From: Gloeomargarita sp. SKYB120
Lineage (GTDB): Bacteria > Cyanobacteriota > Cyanobacteriia > Gloeomargaritales > Gloeomargaritaceae
Reading direction: 5' to 3'
DNA: 64,000 nt
Assembly: GCA_025062155.1 (NCBI GenBank)
Contig: JANXAM010000006.1
Coordinates: 1-64,000, forward strand
Of this stretch, positions 2,005 to 35,055 are shown in pieces (the first letter of the stretch is position 1; every line of letters begins with the position of its first letter). Under the pieces are notes generated by a model that was given only the letters and a program-made list of their open reading frames with translations, was not told the DNA's origin and made no database searches. The translations under genes were made by a program, and so were the position numbers.

Positions 2005-2199
2005 GCGACCTTGCCCGATGGAATGCCTGTTTCCTTAACTTTTATTAGACCGGAAAACGGTAGCAATCTGTGTAAGTCAGATCACAGGGGGATGGTGCTC
2101 CGAGTCATCTAGGCGTCCAGGGCCAAGTCCCGTTATTCTCACTCTGACCAATGCAGGTGGCTTCGCTATAGACTAGAAGATGGTAGGATCAATGGCCGT

Positions 2200-2272
2200 G
2201 CGTCCTTAGTTCAGTTGGTAGAACGTCGGTCTCCAAAACCGAAAGTCGGGGGTTCGAGTCCCTCAGGGCGCG
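2200..2272 (+). tRNA. trnW: tRNA-Trp (CCA anticodon)
   Basis: A 73-nt cloverleaf: acceptor stem GCGTCCT/AGGGCGC, D arm with GTTCAGTTGGTAGAAC, anticodon stem TCGGT/ACCGA with loop CTCCAAA (anticodon CCA), and T arm GGGGG-TTCGAGT-CCCTC. No CCA tail is encoded. The 3' half from 2228 is part of the left attachment site of an integrated element, so this tRNA is a hybrid: a chromosomal 5' half joined to a 3' half restored by the element. Confidence 0.95.
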
Positions 2273-2305
2273 TCGAAAACCTAAGCCCTAAAACGCAATA
2301 CCTGG
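2228..2305 (+). repeat. attL: left 78-bp copy of the attachment repeat
   Basis: It begins at GGTCTCC in the tRNA-Trp anticodon arm, covers the last 45 nt of the tRNA and continues 33 bp beyond it to CCTGG at 2305. It is identical at every base to 7571-7648. The neighbouring bases differ (C versus T on the left, G versus T on the right), which fixes the repeat ends. Strand exchange probably occurs in the anticodon-to-T-arm part, as for other tRNA-targeting integrases; the exact crossover cannot be read. Confidence 0.95.
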
Positions 2306-2381: not shown

Positions 2382-2400
2382 TAGTCAAGATTTAGTCAAG
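2382..2400 (+). repeat. Presumed integrase arm-type site (left copy)
   Basis: TAGTCAAGATTTAGTCAAG is two TAGTCAAG octamers separated by 3 bp (ATT). The same 19 bp recurs at 7494-7512, inside the other end of the element. This copy is 76 bp inside attL and overlaps the last codons and stop of the integrase gene. In the excised circle both copies would flank the core, the arrangement expected of P and P' arm sites. The binding role is inferred from position and repetition. Confidence 0.65.
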
Positions 2401-3521
2401 GCTAGGTTGGCCAGGGGTGGGGTAGGCCGGTCAGGGGCACGGCATACGCGGTTGTACTCCTGCTGGTACAGGTCAGCAGTGATCCAACGGTGGTAGGTTT
2501 GGGTGTGGACTTCCACCGAATGGCCCATCATCCGAGCAGCCAGGGCAATGGGTAGGTTGAACTGGATAGCCCGGATAGCCCAACAGTGGCGAAGTGCATA
2601 GGGCGTGAAAGGAACATTAGCCCGTCGAAAGGCTTGGGTGACCCGTTGACCAAGGTCTCGGTTAGTAGCCCCACTGCAAGGGGGGAGCATTTCCTGGTCT
2701 AAGCACCACTGGGTTGCCCATTCCGGGTACAGGGGATACACCAGGCGGCTACCTGTCTTACCATCTGTGACCCGCAACTGGGGAAAGTCTGACCACTCCA
2801 GGTGGAATACTTCGTGTGGGCGTAACCCGTAAGCAGCTAAAACACCATAAACCCATCGCCAATGGGGATTTTTTATCTGCTCCCGAGTGATGACAATTTG
2901 TTCATCGGTGGGTAGTTCCCGTTCCCCAACAGACCGGTGGGAGTAGTTACCCCGCAGGGGTTTCAGGTCAATCGAGGACAAACCGGCAAAATTGGCCAAA
3001 GCCTGACAAGCTTGAACCCATCGCCGTCGGGTACGGGTATTGGGCGGGGTTTGCTTGACTGCTTGCTCTAGCAAGTCACTGGTCAGGGGGAGATGCCCTG
3101 GCAAGTGTTTGAATACGGCTAGATAGTCCGTTTTCCAGGTCGTTTGAGTTTTATCTGTGCATCCCCTACGGGTGAAATAATCCTGCTCAAAACGGCTAAC
3201 CCAATCGGCCACAGTTGTCGGTTTCTTCTCATCTCTTAGATAGATTTCCCAGCTAAATTCTTTACGGGCAAGTAATCCTGATACTTTATGGGCTTCCTTT
3301 TCTGCTTCTTTAACTCCGGCTGGATTTGCTTCAATATACAATCGCGATAACGGTATGCGTTGTTGCTTCCTAATGGGACTGTTTTCCCTATTACGGATTG
3401 GGAACATTCCCCGCAAATACAAGGCACTACCAATCCGTTCTATACGGATACTGATGCCACCAGCTTTGAGCCTTTGGTTAGCTTGGTCAATTAACTGCTT
3501 AACCCGATCAGGTTTGGTCAT
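2385..3521 (-). CDS. int: Tyrosine recombinase (integrase) of the tRNA-Trp element
   Basis: Carries out site-specific integration and excision of the element. The 378-aa protein has an N-terminal DNA-binding part, a core-binding SAM-like region (about 100-185) and a C-terminal catalytic domain. Catalytic residues can be read as R234 (LRPHEV), K255 (DGKTGS), R311 in YALRH, H334 in GHS and nucleophile Y343 (TYHRW). The usual first His of HxxR is Tyr308, a substitution I believe occurs in other integrases. The gene is transcribed leftward towards attL; its stop lies inside the repeated TAGTCAAG site. The excisionase-like gene is upstream on the same strand. Only the DNA target (tRNA-Trp) is certain from context. 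Confidence 0.95.
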   Translation of the reverse strand: MTKPDRVKQLIDQANQRLKAGGISIRIERIGSALYLRGMFPIRNRENSPIRKQQRIPLSRLYIEANPAGVKEAEKEAHKVSGLLARKEFSWEIYLRDEKKPTTVADWVSRFEQDYFTRRGCTDKTQTTWKTDYLAVFKHLPGHLPLTSDLLEQAVKQTPPNTRTRRRWVQACQALANFAGLSSIDLKPLRGNYSHRSVGERELPTDEQIVITREQIKNPHWRWVYGVLAAYGLRPHEVFHLEWSDFPQLRVTDGKTGSRLVYPLYPEWATQWCLDQEMLPPCSGATNRDLGQRVTQAFRRANVPFTPYALRHCWAIRAIQFNLPIALAARMMGHSVEVHTQTYHRWITADLYQQEYNRVCRAPDRPTPPLANLALTKS

Positions 3522-3663
3522 ATTACGTTGTACTGCTAATGTTTACAACATCGCATTGGTTGGACTTTTGCAGCCAAATCAAGTGAAAAAAAATTGTTAC
3601 CCATGCATCCGGTACTATGACCTTATTTTACCGGATATATGGCTATTTGGTGATACTGGTTTT

Positions 3664-3891
3664 TCATAGTTTAATACCAAATGCTTCGGCAATACGTGTT
3701 TTATGCCAGCGATAAGTTGGTCGGTAAGCATCCGGATCAAGGGCATAATAATGAAAACCCTTAACCAGTTTATTGCCATGTATCAGGCGGTAGAGATGCT
3801 CACGAGAGACCCCCAGGAGATGGGTCATCTCTGTTGTTGATACCCACATCTTTTCCGACTTGGGGTTAGTTTTCTTGGTCATTGTCTTCAC
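3664..3891 (-). CDS. Small helix-turn-helix protein, excisionase/AlpA-like
   Basis: 75 aa. The segment WVSTTEMTHLLGVSREHLYR is a helix-turn-helix of the kind in AlpA/excisionase-type proteins, followed by a winged basic tail with RPTYRWHKTRI. It lies between the integrase and the XRE gene, and its start overlaps the end of the XRE gene by 26 bp, so the two are probably co-translated. By position it is the likely recombination directionality factor, or a regulator of int. It could start at the fourth residue (MTKKTNPK). Function is inferred from fold and context. Confidence 0.75.
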   Translation of the reverse strand: MKTMTKKTNPKSEKMWVSTTEMTHLLGVSREHLYRLIHGNKLVKGFHYYALDPDAYRPTYRWHKTRIAEAFGIKL

Positions 3892-4342
3892 TCTCCATTG
3901 CTTTTCTTTCTTGCTGCATATTGACGCTGATCCATTCGGTCAGCTTCATAGCTGGAGTGCCATCCTTAAATTTGGGAATCGTTTGCTTGGCCTGCTCTAG
4001 TAGGTCTGGGGTGGTTATCCCCAGCTTGAGCAGCGTGTCCAGCACAGCTTGGATATTTTCTGGTTTTTCCCGTTCGAGTATCTCAGGTTGAGAGACCGAC
4101 CGGGCTAGGTCGTAAAACTCGTCGGGGTACTTCAGCACTTCGTAGAAGGTCAACGTGGCCACAGGGTCAACCTGGCGTAACCCATCGGCCAGCTTCTCAA
4201 TGTCATCCCACATCAAGGACGCTTGCCGTCCCGTTATCACCTTGCTCAGGTTGGCTTTACTGACCCCAGATAACTTAGCCAGCCGGTAGGCCGTCAGGTT
4301 CCACCGAGAAAGAATCAACTGTATTGCCTTGCCAATGTTCAT
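3866..4342 (-). CDS. XRE-family transcriptional regulator (repressor candidate)
   Basis: 158 aa. The N-terminal Cro/C1-type helix-turn-helix is residues 5-60 (NLTAYRLAKLSGVSKANLSK then VITGR). The C-terminal part, from about residue 65, is acidic and helical with no protease (LexA-like Ser/Lys) signature, so RecA-stimulated self-cleavage is not expected. It is first in the leftward XRE-xis operon, with int further downstream, and diverges from the ribbon-helix-helix gene with only 43 bp between starts. That layout suggests a master repressor controlling both directions. No clear Shine-Dalgarno precedes the ATG. Confidence 0.88.
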   Translation of the reverse strand: MNIGKAIQLILSRWNLTAYRLAKLSGVSKANLSKVITGRQASLMWDDIEKLADGLRQVDPVATLTFYEVLKYPDEFYDLARSVSQPEILEREKPENIQAVLDTLLKLGITTPDLLEQAKQTIPKFKDGTPAMKLTEWISVNMQQERKAMESEDNDQEN

Positions 4343-4385
4343 GGTTTTGTTTTAGTATTTAGGTAGTCTCTATTAGGATACCACT
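4343..4385. promoter_or_regulatory. Divergent control region between XRE regulator and RHH gene
   Basis: Only 43 bp separate the two divergent start codons, so both promoters and any operator must overlap here or lie inside the genes. The sequence is AT-rich with GGTA and TACC half-sites spaced 14 bp apart (GGTAGT and GATACC). I could not fit good -10/-35 pairs. Assignment as the element's decision switch rests on gene arrangement. Confidence 0.45.
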
Positions 4386-4559
4386 ATGACCCGACGCTTT
4401 TCAAGCCAATTGTCGCCCATTAAGCTAAGCGATGACCTACGCCAAGCGTTACAGCAGATTGCTGATGAACGGGAAATACCCCTGGCACTTGCTGTTCGGG
4501 AAGCTATCCGGCTGTATGTGAAATTCCACGGCAAAAATTCATCGGTCGAAACTCTGTAA
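4386..4559 (+). CDS. Ribbon-helix-helix (CopG-like) DNA-binding protein, 57 aa
   Basis: The translation begins MTRRFSSQLSPIKLSDDLRQ and continues through ALQQIADEREIPLALAVREA to a VKFHGKNSS tail. The pattern beta strand (SPIKLSD), helix (DLRQALQQIADERE), helix (PLALAVREAIRLYV) is the ribbon-helix-helix fold of small repressors and copy-number regulators. It is divergent from the XRE gene and lies upstream of the primase/helicase gene, so it could control replication of the element. An inverted repeat (TGTAAAC/GTTTACA) begins over its stop codon. Confidence 0.72.
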   Translation: MTRRFSSQLSPIKLSDDLRQALQQIADEREIPLALAVREAIRLYVKFHGKNSSVETL

Positions 4560-4582
4560 ACAATGTACTGCTTTTGTTTACA
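4555..4582. promoter_or_regulatory. Inverted repeat TGTAAAC / GTTTACA upstream of the primase gene
   Basis: TGTAAAC at 4555-4561 and GTTTACA at 4576-4582 are perfect 7-bp arms with a 14-bp spacer. A third copy of the half-site, TGTAAACA, lies at 4703-4710, just before the primase ribosome-binding site. Three half-sites in 160 bp between a DNA-binding protein gene and the replication gene fit an operator for the RHH or XRE protein. Binding is inferred. Confidence 0.5.
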
Positions 4583-4607
4583 TTGTCGTTCTGATGGAGA
4601 TTTAGAG

Positions 4608-4733
4608 ATGAAGACGTACTTCAACATGGCATTGGTTTGGATGGGGTCTTTAGCCCATAAAAAATCGCCCCAGAGATTGGTCGTCTGGGGCAATTCTGCA
4701 ACTGTAAACATTAACACTCCAAAGGAGGTTTGA
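4608..4733 (+). CDS. Possible 41-aa leader ORF before the primase gene
   Basis: Open from ATG 4608 to TGA 4731-4733 (MKTYFNMALVWMGSLAHKKS then 21 more residues). It ends 2 bp before the primase ATG and contains the primase Shine-Dalgarno in its last codons, so translational coupling is possible. A GGAGATTTAGAG sequence precedes it. No similarity is recognised, and it contains a strong hairpin (4667-4691), so it may be non-coding leader instead. Confidence 0.25.
   Translation: MKTYFNMALVWMGSLAHKKSPQRLVVWGNSATVNINTPKEV
4667..4691 (-). terminator. Hairpin with terminator character on the minus strand
   Basis: GCCCCAGA (4667-4674) pairs perfectly with TCTGGGGC (4684-4691) around a 9-nt loop. 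An A-run at 4659-4664 on the plus strand becomes a U-run after the hairpin on the minus strand, the form of an intrinsic terminator for leftward transcription. It could block antisense transcription from reaching the switch region, or act as a leader structure for the primase mRNA in the plus direction. Confidence 0.5.
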
Positions 4734-4735
4734 TC

Positions 4736-7399
4736 ATGAATGTAACAGAAAAATTCTCCCACTCTAGTATGTCACATCCTTGTCCTGTTTGCGGTCGCAC
4801 CAAGGATGGTGACTGTCGGATAACGGCTGATAGTGTGTTTTGCCATACGCACCAGCATATCCGGCCAGGGGAGACGCTCAAGGGCCATGATGGCCAGACC
4901 TGGGCGTGTGTTAGTAAGACGGCCAAGGGTGCAGGATGGGGTATCTTTAAGCTGCATCAACCCCGCCAGTGGGTGAAACCCGCACGACCGAAACAGGAAA
5001 CCTACTACCAGTACCCTGGACGGGATGGAAAGCCACTGGTACGGGTCAAGCGGATTGATGATGGTCAAGGGCGCAAGCGCTTCATCCAGGAACGGTGGGA
5101 TGGCCACCGGTGGGTGGCTGGTCTGGGTGACCTGAACCGGCGCTTAATCCCGGTTTACCGGTATACCGATGTCCGGCGGGCAATCGAATTGGGGAATGGC
5201 CCCAAGCTGGACGGGAAACCCCTGGTGGTTTGGGTGGAAGGGGAGAAAACCGCAGATGCACTTTGGGAGGTTGGTATTCCGGCCACCACATCCATTGGGG
5301 GTAGCCAGGGGTTTACGTCCTACGGCGAGTATTACCACGACCTAGAAGGGGCTGTCTTGGTGATTGCCCCTGACCGTGATCAGAAGGGGTTGGAGTATGC
5401 TCGCCAGGTGGCTGCTGCCTTCAATGGCAACGTCAAGGGGTGGGTTTATGCCGGGGATAAGGCCCATTGGCAAGACCCCAGCGATGGCTATGACCTGGCG
5501 GACTGGATTGCCGAACTACGCCAGCAGGGACTTGATGATACGGCCATCCGTCAATTCATCCTGGGCGCTATTGGCCAAAAGAGAGAAATCGCTGTTCCGG
5601 TTTCATCCCGTGGCGATGGCGAAACTGAAGTTACCCATGAACTGGTGGGTCAGTTATTGGCACAAACCCAAGCCCGTTTTGACATCCACAAACTAGTTCA
5701 CCCCACCCTGGCAAAAGCCATCAGCTCAAAAGCCCAGTCGTTCAATTTGCCGCCAGAGATATTGCTGAGTGTGTTTCTGGTGGTGGCATCATCCTTGGTT
5801 CCCCACAAATTGCAACTAGGAGAAGACTACTTGATACCTGGTTTGCTTTGGCTCGGTCTGGTGGGAGACAGTGGCACTGGGAAAAGCCCTGTCTTAGACT
5901 TATTTACATCGCCATTGCAGAATCTGCAACTAGAAGCGTTTGAAAGCTATAAGCAAGAACTGAAAGAGTGGGAAAATACAGAAGATAGAGACGAAGACCT
6001 TAAGCCCAAACGACGGTTTTACTACATTTCCGATTTGACTTGGGAAGCCATCAAAAAAGCAATGGAAGCCCGTAGCCATTGCTTAGTTTATTCGGACGAG
6101 TTAGCTGGTTTTGTCAATGGCTTAGGCCAATACAAACCAAGGGCTGGGAATGACCGACAACGCTGGTTGACAGCATATAACGGTGGTTCAATTGACATTC
6201 TCAGGGTTGATGAGTCCCACCATATCCCTAGTGTACACCTAAGCATTTTGGGTGGTATCCAGCCCAGTGTCTTGCATAAACTCATCAAGAGTGATGGCGA
6301 AGTGGTAGATGGGTTTTGGGCACGGTTTATGTGGGTAGAAATGCCACATAGAAAAGTCCCCTGCCCACTGGATATGCCCAAATCAAACCTGCTCTCTGTC
6401 CTGGAATCGGTTTACCAGGTTTTAGATCGCAGGGCAAGCGTTTCCACCACATTTGAACTAGACGCCAAAGGAAAGCAAGTCTGGCGACAATGGTGGGATG
6501 AGATTGAGACCTTGAAAGACGATGAACTAAATCCGTTCATCCGTGCCCTGTATCCCAAATTGTTGGAACGGGCTGGACGGATTGCTCTGGTTGCTCATTG
6601 CGTGAACTGTGCAGTTGCCAATACCCCACCAGGGGAAACCATCCCAGTCGAAACCCTGAAGTGGGCAATTGCCTTTACCCGGTGGACACTTCAGCAAGCC
6701 AGGGCTGTTTATGGTGATTGTGGCTATGCCGAATCACCTGAAGCCCAACGAGTCGCCCGTTTTGTGCAACGCTTCCAAGGGAAGCAAGTGAACGGTCGGC
6801 GGGTTGTGACCTGGTGGACAGGTGGAAAGAAACCAAGCGCTAAGGATGCCCGGAATTGGTTGGCCAACTTGGTCAACCTGGGATATGCCCAGCCCGTTAA
6901 GGGAACCCCTGACCAACCTGATTACACCGTGCTGGTTTTAGGTACATCAGGTACATCACAGGTACAAAATCGCCCAAATGCCGACTATGACGATGTTCCA
7001 GCAGGTACATCGTCAGGTACATCACCAGGTACATCGCAGGTACATCCGGTACATGCCCCATGGGAGATACTGGATGATGTACCTGGGAATGTACCTGATG
7101 TACCTGGGAATGTACCTGATGCAGGTACACCGGAAAGTCTCTACCTGTCGGGCTTTCCGGAAATTGTACCTGATGTACCTGATGTACCTGACGATGTACC
7201 TGAAGAGCAGCCACCGACCCTGACGAAGGAAGAAATCCTGGAGCGATTTCCACTTGGTTCGCTGGTGTTGGCACCTAGACAGTCGAGGCCGTTGCCTGTA
7301 GTGGGTGTGGTGTCTACGTTCAATTTGCTGAAGCTTCAGCAGCCAAATGGCGAACCCTGGTACGTACATTGGGTAGATGCCAAGTTGGTAAAGGAGTAG
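4736..7399 (+). CDS. Primase/helicase (zinc finger, Toprim, DUF3987-type ATPase), 887 aa
   Basis: Likely replication protein of the element. Order of domains: CHC2-like zinc finger (C16, C19, C27, C36 with H37/H39), Toprim domain with VEGEK (167-171) and PDRD (212-215), then a DUF3987-like P-loop ATPase with Walker A GDSGTGKS (377-384) and an acidic strand near 448 (LVYSDELAG). After about residue 735 comes a low-complexity Gly/Thr/Ser then Asp/Val/Pro segment encoded by an iteron-like DNA array, then a conserved-looking tail (PWYVHWVDAK). The ATG at 4736 follows AAGGAGG at 7-nt spacing and is preferred over an upstream TTG. A shorter related N-terminal fragment lies at 34794-35055. The overall plan recalls phage P4 alpha and satellite primases, by analogy only. 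Confidence 0.9.
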   Translation: MNVTEKFSHSSMSHPCPVCGRTKDGDCRITADSVFCHTHQHIRPGETLKGHDGQTWACVSKTAKGAGWGIFKLHQPRQWVKPARPKQETYYQYPGRDGKPLVRVKRIDDGQGRKRFIQERWDGHRWVAGLGDLNRRLIPVYRYTDVRRAIELGNGPKLDGKPLVVWVEGEKTADALWEVGIPATTSIGGSQGFTSYGEYYHDLEGAVLVIAPDRDQKGLEYARQVAAAFNGNVKGWVYAGDKAHWQDPSDGYDLADWIAELRQQGLDDTAIRQFILGAIGQKREIAVPVSSRGDGETEVTHELVGQLLAQTQARFDIHKLVHPTLAKAISSKAQSFNLPPEILLSVFLVVASSLVPHKLQLGEDYLIPGLLWLGLVGDSGTGKSPVLDLFTSPLQNLQLEAFESYKQELKEWENTEDRDEDLKPKRRFYYISDLTWEAIKKAMEARSHCLVYSDELAGFVNGLGQYKPRAGNDRQRWLTAYNGGSIDILRVDESHHIPSVHLSILGGIQPSVLHKLIKSDGEVVDGFWARFMWVEMPHRKVPCPLDMPKSNLLSVLESVYQVLDRRASVSTTFELDAKGKQVWRQWWDEIETLKDDELNPFIRALYPKLLERAGRIALVAHCVNCAVANTPPGETIPVETLKWAIAFTRWTLQQARAVYGDCGYAESPEAQRVARFVQRFQGKQVNGRRVVTWWTGGKKPSAKDARNWLANLVNLGYAQPVKGTPDQPDYTVLVLGTSGTSQVQNRPNADYDDVPAGTSSGTSPGTSQVHPVHAPWEILDDVPGNVPDVPGNVPDAGTPESLYLSGFPEIVPDVPDVPDDVPEEQPPTLTKEEILERFPLGSLVLAPRQSRPLPVVGVVSTFNLLKLQQPNGEPWYVHWVDAKLVKE
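6941..7200. repeat. Iteron-like array of GGTACATC in two opposed blocks
   Basis: Exact GGTACATC at 6941, 6950, 7004, 7016, 7028 and 7039; variants at 6961, 7048 and 7124. Exact reverse complement GATGTACC at 7076, 7097, 7172, 7181 and 7193; variants at 7088, 7109 and 7163. Spacings of 9-12 bp dominate, near one helical turn. The left block is mainly forward and the right block mainly reverse. The same DNA word encodes Gly-Thr-Ser in one orientation and Asp-Val-Pro in the other within one reading frame, so DNA-level selection explains it better than protein repeats. A replication origin bound by the encoded primase is the simplest reading. Confidence 0.8.
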
Positions 7400-7570: not shown

Positions 7571-7648
7571 GGTCTCCAAAACCGAAAGTCGGGGGTTCGA
7601 GTCCCTCAGGGCGCGTCGAAAACCTAAGCCCTAAAACGCAATACCTGG
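7571..7648 (+). repeat. attR: right 78-bp copy of the attachment repeat
   Basis: Exact duplicate of 2228-2305. It contains the anticodon arm to 3' end of tRNA-Trp plus 33 bp downstream, but no acceptor 5' strand or D arm, so it is not a functional tRNA gene. It marks the junction where the chromosome resumes. The following 126 bp to the PsbP-like gene hold nothing recognisable. Confidence 0.95.
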
Positions 7649-8314: not shown

Positions 8315-8420
8315 CGCTAGCACCTGTGACGCTACTCCTTCCTTTCGATTGTGCCACCCAACATCCCTACCCCTGGGTTAAAATCGAGCTATTAAGTTTC
8401 TTTAAGATTTGTGACGGGCC

Positions 8421-9854
8421 ATGACCACTGCGACGGCTGCCTATCGGCTGGAGGACTGGCGGGGAGGTCATCGCACCCAGCCCCAGGAATTTGCCTACTG
8501 GGTGGAGGAGGTCACGGGGCAGATACCAGCGGGGTTAACGGGGACGCTCTACCGCAACGGGCCGGGACGGTTGGACCGGGGAGGACAGCGCTATCATCAC
8601 CCGTTCGATGGAGATGGCATGGTGAACCAGGTGTGTTTTCGGGACGGACGCGCCTTCTATCGCAATCGCTATGTGCAAACTCCGGAATTGCTGGCCGAAG
8701 AACGGGCCAACCAGATTCTCTACCGGGGGGTCTTTGGCACCCAAAAACCGGGAGGTTGGTGGAATAATTTTCTCGATTTGCGCTTGAAAAATATCGCCAA
8801 CACCAACGTGGTGTACTGGGGCGACCGGTTACTCGCCCTGTGGGAAGCAGCTCACCCGTATCGCCTGGACCCTAAAACCTTAGCCACGCTGGGGTTAGAT
8901 AATCTTGGGGGCCTGATTCCCGACGGTCATGGGTTTTCGGCTCACCCCCGCATTGATCCCCAGGGATTACTGGTGAATTTCGGGGTCAAAACGGGCTTCA
9001 ACAGCGACCTGCGGCTTTATGAATTTGATGACCGCTGGGGGGTCGTGCGGCAGCATCAATACACCATCAGCGGGTTTGCCTTTCTGCACGACTTCATCCT
9101 GACAGAGCACTACTACGTGTTTTTCCAAAATCCGGTCACCTTTTTCCCGCTGCCCTACCTGTTGGGGTGGACAGGGGCGGCCCAATGCCTGCACTTTAAC
9201 CGGGAGCAACCCACACGCATCCTGGTGATTCCCCGCGCCGGTGGTCCGGTCCGCGTGTTTCTGACGGAACCCTGCTTTGTCTTTCACCACGCCAACGGCT
9301 ACGAGCAGGGGGAGGAGCTGGTCCTGGACTCCATCTGCTACAGCCACTTCCCCACGATTGACCAGCAGACGGACTACCGGTTTGTGGATTTTGCGTCGCT
9401 GCCGGCGGGGCAACTCAAGCGCTTTCGGGTAAATTTGACGACGCACCAAGTGCGTACCGAAATGCTCCTGCCCCGTTGCTGCGAATTTCCCCAGGTGCAT
9501 CCCCAGCGGGTGGGACGGCCCTACCGGTGGGTCTACCTGGGAGTTGCGGCGGACCCCGTGGCGAACGCGCCGTTGCAGGGGATCATGGCGCTGGAGGTGG
9601 AAACGGGTCAACAAAGTCTTTGGCTGGCAGGACCGCGCGGCTTTGTCGGCGAACCGGTGTTTGTGCCCCGCAGCGATGGGGAAACGGACGGCTGGTTACT
9701 CACGTTTGTCTATAACGCCGCCCGCCAATGCACAGATATTGTCATTCTAGATGCGGCGGAAGTGGCTGCTGGACCGGTGGCGACGCTGCACCTGCGGCAC
9801 CATGTGCCCTACGGGTTACACGGGTCGTTCACGCCGGTCTATTGGGGGCCGTGA
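8421..9854 (+). CDS. Carotenoid cleavage oxygenase (RPE65/ACO family)
   Basis: 477 aa, the usual size for cyanobacterial apocarotenoid oxygenase. The family binds one non-heme iron through four histidines in a seven-bladed propeller; matching His-containing segments are HPRID, HDFILTEHYYVFF, FHHANGYEQGEE and the terminal GLHGSF. HPFDGDGMV near residue 55 is also a family motif. It probably cleaves apocarotenoids to retinal-type products, but the substrate cannot be read from sequence. It is followed 32 bp later by the UPF0016 pair on the same strand. Confidence 0.93.
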   Translation: MTTATAAYRLEDWRGGHRTQPQEFAYWVEEVTGQIPAGLTGTLYRNGPGRLDRGGQRYHHPFDGDGMVNQVCFRDGRAFYRNRYVQTPELLAEERANQILYRGVFGTQKPGGWWNNFLDLRLKNIANTNVVYWGDRLLALWEAAHPYRLDPKTLATLGLDNLGGLIPDGHGFSAHPRIDPQGLLVNFGVKTGFNSDLRLYEFDDRWGVVRQHQYTISGFAFLHDFILTEHYYVFFQNPVTFFPLPYLLGWTGAAQCLHFNREQPTRILVIPRAGGPVRVFLTEPCFVFHHANGYEQGEELVLDSICYSHFPTIDQQTDYRFVDFASLPAGQLKRFRVNLTTHQVRTEMLLPRCCEFPQVHPQRVGRPYRWVYLGVAADPVANAPLQGIMALEVETGQQSLWLAGPRGFVGEPVFVPRSDGETDGWLLTFVYNAARQCTDIVILDAAEVAAGPVATLHLRHHVPYGLHGSFTPVYWGP

Positions 9855-33811: not shown

Positions 33812-34222
33812 TTATGTATGGCTAAGCACAGAATGCTTGACACAGGCAGCAACCAGAACCCTAGATGTTTCCACGTTACTTGCTCCCCAAGGACGATAAC
33901 CTAAATGTTTTCTGCTATAAAAGCGCCCATTTGACAATGACAAAAGACTCCTAGTAGGCCCATGCCACCGGCGCCGCCGATAATCCTGCAACGTCCGCAT
34001 CAGACGCAAACCTGGCTGTATCCCAACAACTCCCAGGAGCAGCCACAGTAGAATTTGCAAATACAAAGGCGGTACATCAATACCATCGAGATTCGGCAGT
34101 TGTTTACCCAGTTGTTGCAGTGTCCATTCCCACCACTCCTGGAATTGTTGTTGCCACAACTGAATTTGCCAAGTCCAATTGGTCTGCTGATGAGACACCT
34201 GCATGGTGCCAAATCGAGCCAT
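33812..34222 (-). CDS. Truncated cyanobacterial membrane protein (DUF4129-like N-terminus)
   Basis: 136 aa. The N-terminal 90 residues look real: a Gln/Trp-rich amphipathic part (WTWQIQLWQQQFQEWWEWTL), then a hydrophobic helix (LYLQILLWLLLGVVGIQPGL). This resembles the start of cyanobacterial DUF4129 proteins, which should be longer. The last 15 or so residues are encoded by an IS630-end-like sequence at 33817-33870, so the native C-terminus seems lost to an insertion. Probably a broken gene. Confidence 0.45.
   Translation of the reverse strand: MARFGTMQVSHQQTNWTWQIQLWQQQFQEWWEWTLQQLGKQLPNLDGIDVPPLYLQILLWLLLGVVGIQPGLRLMRTLQDYRRRRWHGPTRSLLSLSNGRFYSRKHLGYRPWGASNVETSRVLVAACVKHSVLSHT
33817..33870 (+). 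repeat. Lone diverged copy of an IS630 left end
   Basis: TATGGCTAAGCACAGAATGC and the following 30 bp align with the left end of the IS630 copy (35048 onward, TATAGCTAAGTACAGAATGT), mostly with transition differences. No second end or transposase belongs to it. It replaces the 3' end of the DUF4129-like gene, so it may be what broke that gene. Confidence 0.55.
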
Positions 34223-34245: not shown

Positions 34246-34316
34246 GCGGGCATAGTTTAGTGGTAAAACCACAGTCTTCCAAACTGTTGTCGCGGGTTCG
34301 ATTCCCGCTGCCCGCT
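34246..34316 (+). tRNA. trnG: tRNA-Gly (TCC anticodon)
   Basis: 71 nt. Acceptor GCGGGCA/TGCCCGC, D arm GTTTAGTGGTAAAAC, anticodon stem CACAG/CTGTT (with a wobble/mismatch at the base) with loop TCTTCCAAA (anticodon TCC), T arm CGCGGG-TTCGATT-CCCGCT. The remnants of a second integrative element begin right after it, consistent with tRNA-Gly having been the integration target. I found no direct repeat of its 3' end nearby. Confidence 0.93.
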
Positions 34317-34692: not shown

Positions 34693-34793
34693 GTCGCCGC
34701 GCCAGGGGCGTTGCGCCGGCCGCCTAATGAGAAACATGCCCCCCGCCAGCATCCTAAGGGGGCAAACTTACTAAGGAATCAAAAACAACCGAC

Positions 34794-35055
34794 AAGTTAC
34801 ACCCGTCTGGCCCCCACCATCCCTGTCCAGTGTGTGGCCGTGTGAAAGACGGGGATTGCTGCACCACAGATGGTACCCTACTGTTGTGCCATACTTACCG
34901 AGATTTACGGGTTGGGATACCATCCAGGGCCACAACGGGCAATTGTGGAAGTGTGTCGGCATCACGGAAACGGGTGCGGGGTGGGGCCAGTTTATCCCAC
35001 AACCCGAACCTTGGGTGAAACCCTACCGCCCGGTTGGGGAGACGTACTATAGCTA
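34794..35055 (+). pseudogene. 5' remnant of a primase gene related to the tRNA-Trp element
   Basis: Two frames together read HHPCPVCGRVKDGDCCTTDG, LLLCHTYRDLRVG, then after a frameshift TIQGHNGQLWKCVGITETGA and WVKPYRPVGETYY. This parallels HPCPVCGRTKDGDCRITADS to WVKPARPKQETYYQ in the intact primase (about residues 14-92), including the zinc-binding cysteines. It stops exactly where the IS630 left end begins. No Toprim or ATPase part remains. Confidence 0.85.

Follow-up and report, generated by a model that had tools for sequence, protein, structure and literature searches.

An array of short DNA words in two opposed halves lies inside the primase-helicase gene of a small integrative element in the stretch of DNA analysed here (64,000 nucleotides, hereafter the window), and is likely to function as the element's replication origin. 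The reading that we favour, with good confidence, is that these words are iterons for the initiator, recognised, as in SaPIs, by the C-terminal domain of the helicase itself and placed, as in phage lambda, within the initiator gene itself. The element measures 5.3 kb, is integrated in a tRNA-Trp gene and is bounded by 78-bp direct repeats that include the 3' end of the tRNA. Its features are as follows.

2199..2274, plus strand: tRNA-Trp (CCA), the integration target (ARAGORN; Rfam tRNA, 70.8 bits), with its 3' end within the left att site
2228..2305, no strand assigned: attL, a 78-bp direct repeat identical to 7571-7648; a DNA search found the same repeat
2385..3521, minus strand: tyrosine integrase (Pfam PF00589, 2.3e-6; PHROG integrase, 2.6e-20)
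3664..3891, minus strand: small HTH protein, excisionase-like (HTH_17, 1.1e-4, and TIGR01764 excise, 9.9e-5, both below cutoff)
3866..4342, minus strand: Cro/C1-type regulator (HTH_26, 22.4 bits against a cutoff of 22; HTH_31)
4386..4559, plus strand: 57-aa ribbon-helix-helix-like (RHH-like) protein (NCBIfam ORF56 plasmid copy control, 7.3e-4, 19.6 bits against a cutoff of 50)
4730..7399, plus strand: primase-helicase, an 889-codon ORF (PF13148 (DUF3987), 4.4e-50; PHROG helicase/primase)
6545..6937, plus strand: C-terminal part of the helicase with a predicted winged-helix domain (AlphaFold2, pLDDT 81), ending just 5' of the array
6940..7053, plus strand: left half of the array, with forward sites of the CAGGTACATC type (outer group at 6940/6949/6960; cluster at 7003/7015/7027/7038/7047)
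7077..7203, minus strand: right half of the array, with the reversed word (cluster at 7077/7089/7098/7110; outer group at 7164/7173/7182/7194; one forward copy at 7123)
7204..7399, plus strand: C-terminal tail past the array, mostly missing from the two nearest relatives in the alignment
7571..7648, no strand assigned: attR, a 78-bp direct repeat identical to 2228-2305

No structural phage genes were seen in the 5.3-kb element, the Rfam scan returned the tRNA as its sole match, and promoter and terminator scans gave results at or below chance level. The primase-helicase joins a primase-like N-terminal part to a DUF3987 helicase-like domain. The ORF caller starts it at a TTG at 4730; an AGGAGG lies a few bases before an ATG at 4736, which is probably the true start. 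The 57-aa RHH-like protein is possibly a copy-control repressor, to go by a weak match to the ORF56 family that falls far below the cutoff.

An earlier note on this DNA had counted an octamer, GGTACATC, six times in one orientation and five times in the other between 6941 and 7200. These counts are exact, with forward copies at 6941, 6950, 7004, 7016, 7028 and 7039 and reverse complements at 7076, 7097, 7172, 7181 and 7193; elsewhere in the 64-kb window the octamer occurs once (shuffles: mean 1.15, maximum 5). All 13 copies of AGGTACAT in the window lie inside the array, out of 34 genome-wide, and the core GGTACA is present 17 times in the array, nine times forward and eight times in reverse. 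When the copies are aligned on GGTACA, the six core columns reach 2 bits and the two columns upstream of them 1.7 bits, with at most 0.8 bits in the columns beyond those and past position +6. The spacing of 9-12 bp described earlier holds approximately within the clusters, where steps measure 9-13 bp, but not for the array as a whole: each half consists of a tight cluster and an outer group some 41-54 bp distant, and one forward copy (7124) sits within the reverse half.

Codon choice is insufficient to produce these words. In a synonymous-codon resampling that kept the peptide and the gene's own codon usage, AGGTACAT arose 0.24 times on average and never more than 3 times (13 observed), and AGGTACA 0.61 times on average and at most 4 times (16 observed). 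Within the array, 11 of 12 valine codons are GTA and 6 of 6 threonine codons are ACA, compared with 9 of 66 and 8 of 38, respectively, in the rest of the gene. Gly-Thr-Ser, the reading previously assigned to all the forward octamers, applies to five of the six, whereas the copy at 7039 lies in another frame and encodes Gln-Val-His; a near copy at 7048 encodes Pro-Val-His. The reverse copies encode Asp-Val-Pro, as had been noted, or Asn-Val-Pro. No single peptide is therefore kept, since the word is read in two forward frames (Gly-Thr-Ser; Gln/Pro-Val-His) and one reverse frame, and the existence of three readings for a single DNA word adds weight to the argument for the DNA level. That selection acts on the DNA of the array and not on the peptide, as the earlier note proposed, is strongly supported by these readings and by the resampling, and a DNA-level function of the array is very likely.

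At the same point, the nearest relatives of the helicase, from Gloeomargarita sp. SKYG116 (locus L001; 65% in the best segment) and from genome G085 (locus L063; 56%), have an array whose word, AGGTGCA, differs from that of the window by a single base throughout and is again present in both orientations. In the alignment of both with the window protein, the tail peptides match poorly and the helicase and winged-helix parts well. The comparison of homologues suggested in the earlier note thus finds the position of the array kept, its word uniformly altered and its peptide poorly conserved.

A wider survey of cyanobacterial loci revealed the same organisation. A 7-mer present at least six times in the C-terminal part of the gene plus the 500 bp beyond was found at 40 of 61 related loci, just past the predicted winged-helix domain, whereas control intervals gave 0 of 61 for the gene body, 2 of 57 for the upstream side and 2 of 56 for the downstream side. 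The word of each locus was taken as the one with the maximum count, which favours array detection, and the same procedure left the control intervals nearly empty; the surveyed loci share ancestry and so are not independent. By this measure (a 7-mer at least six times) about a third of the loci lacked a clear array. Most loci have one dominant, locus-specific word, and the words differ between replicons (AGGTACA, AGGTGCA, AAAGTAGAC, CAGTAGTC). VapE and D5/DUF5906 helicases bear arrays of their own, and the array travels with the helicase module, not with the other genes of the element. For CyRepA1 of pSYSA, a Rep from a different family that has been defined by experiment (PMC9978351), no comparable array was found at the replication gene (L103).

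Eight viral contigs were added after the cyanobacterial survey, seven of them with a DUF3987-type helicase. At five of these seven loci a word is repeated 7-11 times at the stop codon or past it, and a further locus has five copies. In four of those six, at most about 30 bp separate the end of the helicase ORF from the first copy; in one further viral locus (L144) the array begins 180 bp past the stop, and in another (L142) it spans the stop. The helicase ORF of most cyanobacterial elements reads through the array, and at some loci the array lies downstream of the stop or across it. Because the viral arrays lie at or after the stop and the cyanobacterial ORFs mostly continue through, the simplest direction to infer from the sequences is that the origin would first have stood beside the gene and later been read into the ORF.

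The arrays also share a geometry. They are mostly convergent (>>>><<<<), with a mean AUC of 0.78 against 0.57 for the null (null maximum 0.67) and p < 0.01 by permutation in 10 of 32 loci, in a statistic for which the orientation was fixed by the left half and the null was handled in the same way. Steps between sites of the same orientation measure 8-13 bp, about one helical turn, in 185 of 243 cases, and a typical half consists of a cluster of 3-5 sites with two or three more sites 33-58 bp off. Of 430 sites, 278 agree with their mirror position to within 2 bp, compared with 194 expected from gap shuffling (combined p ~6e-10); L001 (12/12), L063 (10/10), L072, L095 and L118 are examples. Mirror symmetry is marginal in the window (10/14, p 0.043) and missing in several surveyed loci. 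Arrays have a median of 11.5 sites, a number that, as a hypothesis, would match two hexamers in which every subunit takes one site.

Several lines of evidence point to the C-terminal domain of the helicase itself as the putative binder of the array. Words tend to be more alike where the 130 residues preceding the array are more alike (Mantel r 0.41, p 2e-4). The locus L063 has a different N-terminal part (DUF3854), yet keeps its relative's AGGTGCA, and three co-resident Crinalium plasmids have three words, two of them differing in word even with proteins that are 74% identical. For the stretch preceding the array, AlphaFold2 predicts helices and then a winged helix (pLDDT 81), and a Foldseek search with this model returned mostly winged-helix folds, with weak E-values from 0.01 up. 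Sequence searches against solved structures gave nothing significant, and the full-length model is of low confidence (mean pLDDT 37, from too few sequences), with residues 737-832 having no predicted structure. The RHH protein is disfavoured as the binder. An origin bound by the encoded protein, as first proposed for this DNA, is upheld as the best reading of the sequence comparisons, in which the array is tied to the helicase module across loci.

We propose that the array consists of initiator-binding iterons inside the gene of a self-loading primase-helicase, in the linker-coding stretch that follows the winged-helix domain. The C-terminal winged-helix domain would recognise AGGTACA / AGGTACATC. 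One helicase ring would then be recruited to each of the opposed halves, the two facing head to head, as the convergent and mirror-symmetric layout suggests, and the rings would open the DNA, allowing the primase-like N-terminal part to prime bidirectional replication after excision. Neither skew nor AT content singles out the window as an origin.

This arrangement can be compared with those of known replicons. The SaPI origin has two iteron sets around an AT-rich melting region. Two opposed sets are present in the window as well, but the AT-rich centre is absent there (45% AT between the halves compared with 47-48% in the flanks) and weak across loci, with a mean AT excess of 5.6 points at the array centres of the 20 loci whose gaps measure 25 bp or more. 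In SaPIs, the Rep helicase uses its C-terminal domain to recognise iterons immediately 3' of its own gene (PMC7581432). SaPI Rep/ori and SCCmec Cch2, with its putative origin, resemble the window, where the initiator role is a proposed one, in having a helicase with multiple short repeats at the 3' end of its gene. The C-terminal domain of SaPI Rep reads the origin, and binding by two hexamers has been proposed; its counterpart in the window is a predicted domain. The window array is located inside the ORF, directly 3' of the conserved helicase part, whereas that of SaPIs lies downstream of the gene, and the DUF3987 helicase-like domain (VapE or D5 in other loci) is, unlike in SaPIs, fused to a primase-like N-terminal part. 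For placement within the initiator's own coding sequence the precedent is ori-lambda, which lies within the O gene (PMC4488673), the origin role being a proposed one in the window. The lambda origin has four 19-bp iterons next to an AT-rich stretch, and the O and P proteins together recruit a host helicase; the window, in contrast, has about 17 words of about 10 bp in two opposed halves without an AT-rich neighbour, and its initiator carries a helicase-like domain of its own. The alpha protein of phage P4 binds short iterons in both orientations, which lie outside the alpha gene. The window resembles the P4 system (alpha, with ori and crr) in general arrangement, as a primase-helicase with short iterons in both orientations. 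The analogy with P4 drawn in the earlier note is looser than those with SaPI Rep/ori in mechanism and with lambda O/ori in the position within the gene.

Iteron arrays of other plasmids also act in copy control, and the array might be bound by the replication protein for copy control, incompatibility or partition, with the origin elsewhere in the element. The missing AT-rich melting region in the window would be in line with such a role, as would the GC skew of five complete plasmids, which has its maximum near the array in two and no consistent relation to it overall. We nevertheless consider it unlikely, given that a search of the window element detected no further array (at most 3 copies upstream), that the two mirrored halves fit bidirectional loading better than titration, and that the placement after the helicase gene agrees with the SaPI and SCCmec origins (PMC7581432).

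A hairpin origin is conceivable because the strands of the array fold strongly: the inverted halves could form a large hairpin or cruciform that is read by structure, as proposed for the pRN1 family, the word being secondary. In the ORF56/ORF904 region of pRN1 a small repressor gene adjoins a primase-helicase with a C-terminal winged helix, as do their putative and predicted counterparts in the window, and pRN1 requires an essential stem-loop just downstream of the replication gene (PMC4234260). Single strands outfold shuffles in the window (z -10.7), L001 (z -9.5), L011 (z -8.5) and L144 (z -4.4). The pRN1 element is, however, a conserved stem-loop and not an array of repeated words, and identical copies within one arm would be unnecessary for a hairpin. 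In mirrored register, moreover, motif positions pair at 91%, whereas spacers pair at 34% (composition alone predicts 24%); those of the window, at 22% compared with 25% expected, remain unpaired in register. These data make a structure-read origin improbable.

The three small DNA-binding proteins adjoining the helicase gene suggest a further role for the array, as an operator or assembly site of the RHH, Cro/C1 or excisionase-like protein. Since the arrays are always found at the helicase gene despite varied neighbours (on plasmids, phage contigs and chromosomes), these regulators are disfavoured as binders, and AGGTACAT is confined to the array within the window; this explanation is very improbable. 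Local tandem units and visible peptide repeats such as KVDKVD and VPDVPD notwithstanding, a lineage-specific tandem expansion or protein-level repeat with no DNA function is largely refuted by the homologues and scarcely credible, being hard to reconcile with a word in both orientations and several frames, spacers that diverge around a core that does not, the recurrence of the same architecture with unrelated words, and arrays outside the ORF in viral contigs.

If the array is indeed an origin bound by its own initiator, dozens of plasmids and integrative elements of cyanobacteria gain a likely origin and binding word, the divergent words suggest a way for co-resident plasmids to avoid incompatibility, and compact replicons become available for vector design. 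The array is also a clean natural case of shared DNA and protein coding, in which the linker frees the peptide and the DNA is conserved, and its precise mirror geometry renders the two-hexamer loading model directly testable. More tentatively, and with somewhat less than even confidence in the combination, we suggest that cyanobacteria harbour a large, so far unrecognised class of replicons in which the origin is overprinted on the linker of the initiator, each with its own word and with mirrored halves of about six sites that each take one hexamer. The downstream origin of a SaPI-like ancestor would have become coding DNA once the stop codon was lost, and an own word with one hexamer per mirrored half would make initiator-origin specificity readable from sequence alone. 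Published work places DUF3987 proteins among the predicted helicases of mobile elements (PMC5862659); in the open literature, of which our coverage was incomplete, we found neither DUF3987 together with iterons nor iterons within genes of this family.

The tRNA-Trp gene appears to be occupied by other elements in related genomes. In genome G241 it holds one whose integrase is 75% and whose regulator is 53% identical to those of the window, and in G386 one with a VapE-type helicase. In the G386 element (L138, at tRNA-Trp) the helicase gene has an array of its own, in which CATCAGTAA occurs seven times exactly, and the tail contains a further repeat, ATCCGATCC. The motif CAGTACA occurs upstream of both the integrase (3529-3535) and helicase (4564-4570) genes of the window, and four copies are present at 3402-3522 in the G241 element (L137), 5' of a primase region masked as N (3627-5106, 1480 bases); it is possibly an operator of some regulator. 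Further along the window, a broken N-terminal remnant of a related primase-helicase (34785-35055; 59% identical over 47 residues) adjoins a tRNA-Gly (34246-34316) and is probably the relic of a second element. The single GGTACATC outside the array, at 34071, lies close to this remnant, and its count is within chance expectation. Finally, second arrays were seen at two loci: in L072 a dense array of ATCAACA (12 copies; 9025-9368 in reverse-complement coordinates) lies 3' of the first, GATCGACA, and in L143 two adjoining arrays with different words (8351-8690 and 8718-8991) follow one helicase gene, the second word, ACCCGTG, being shared with L144.
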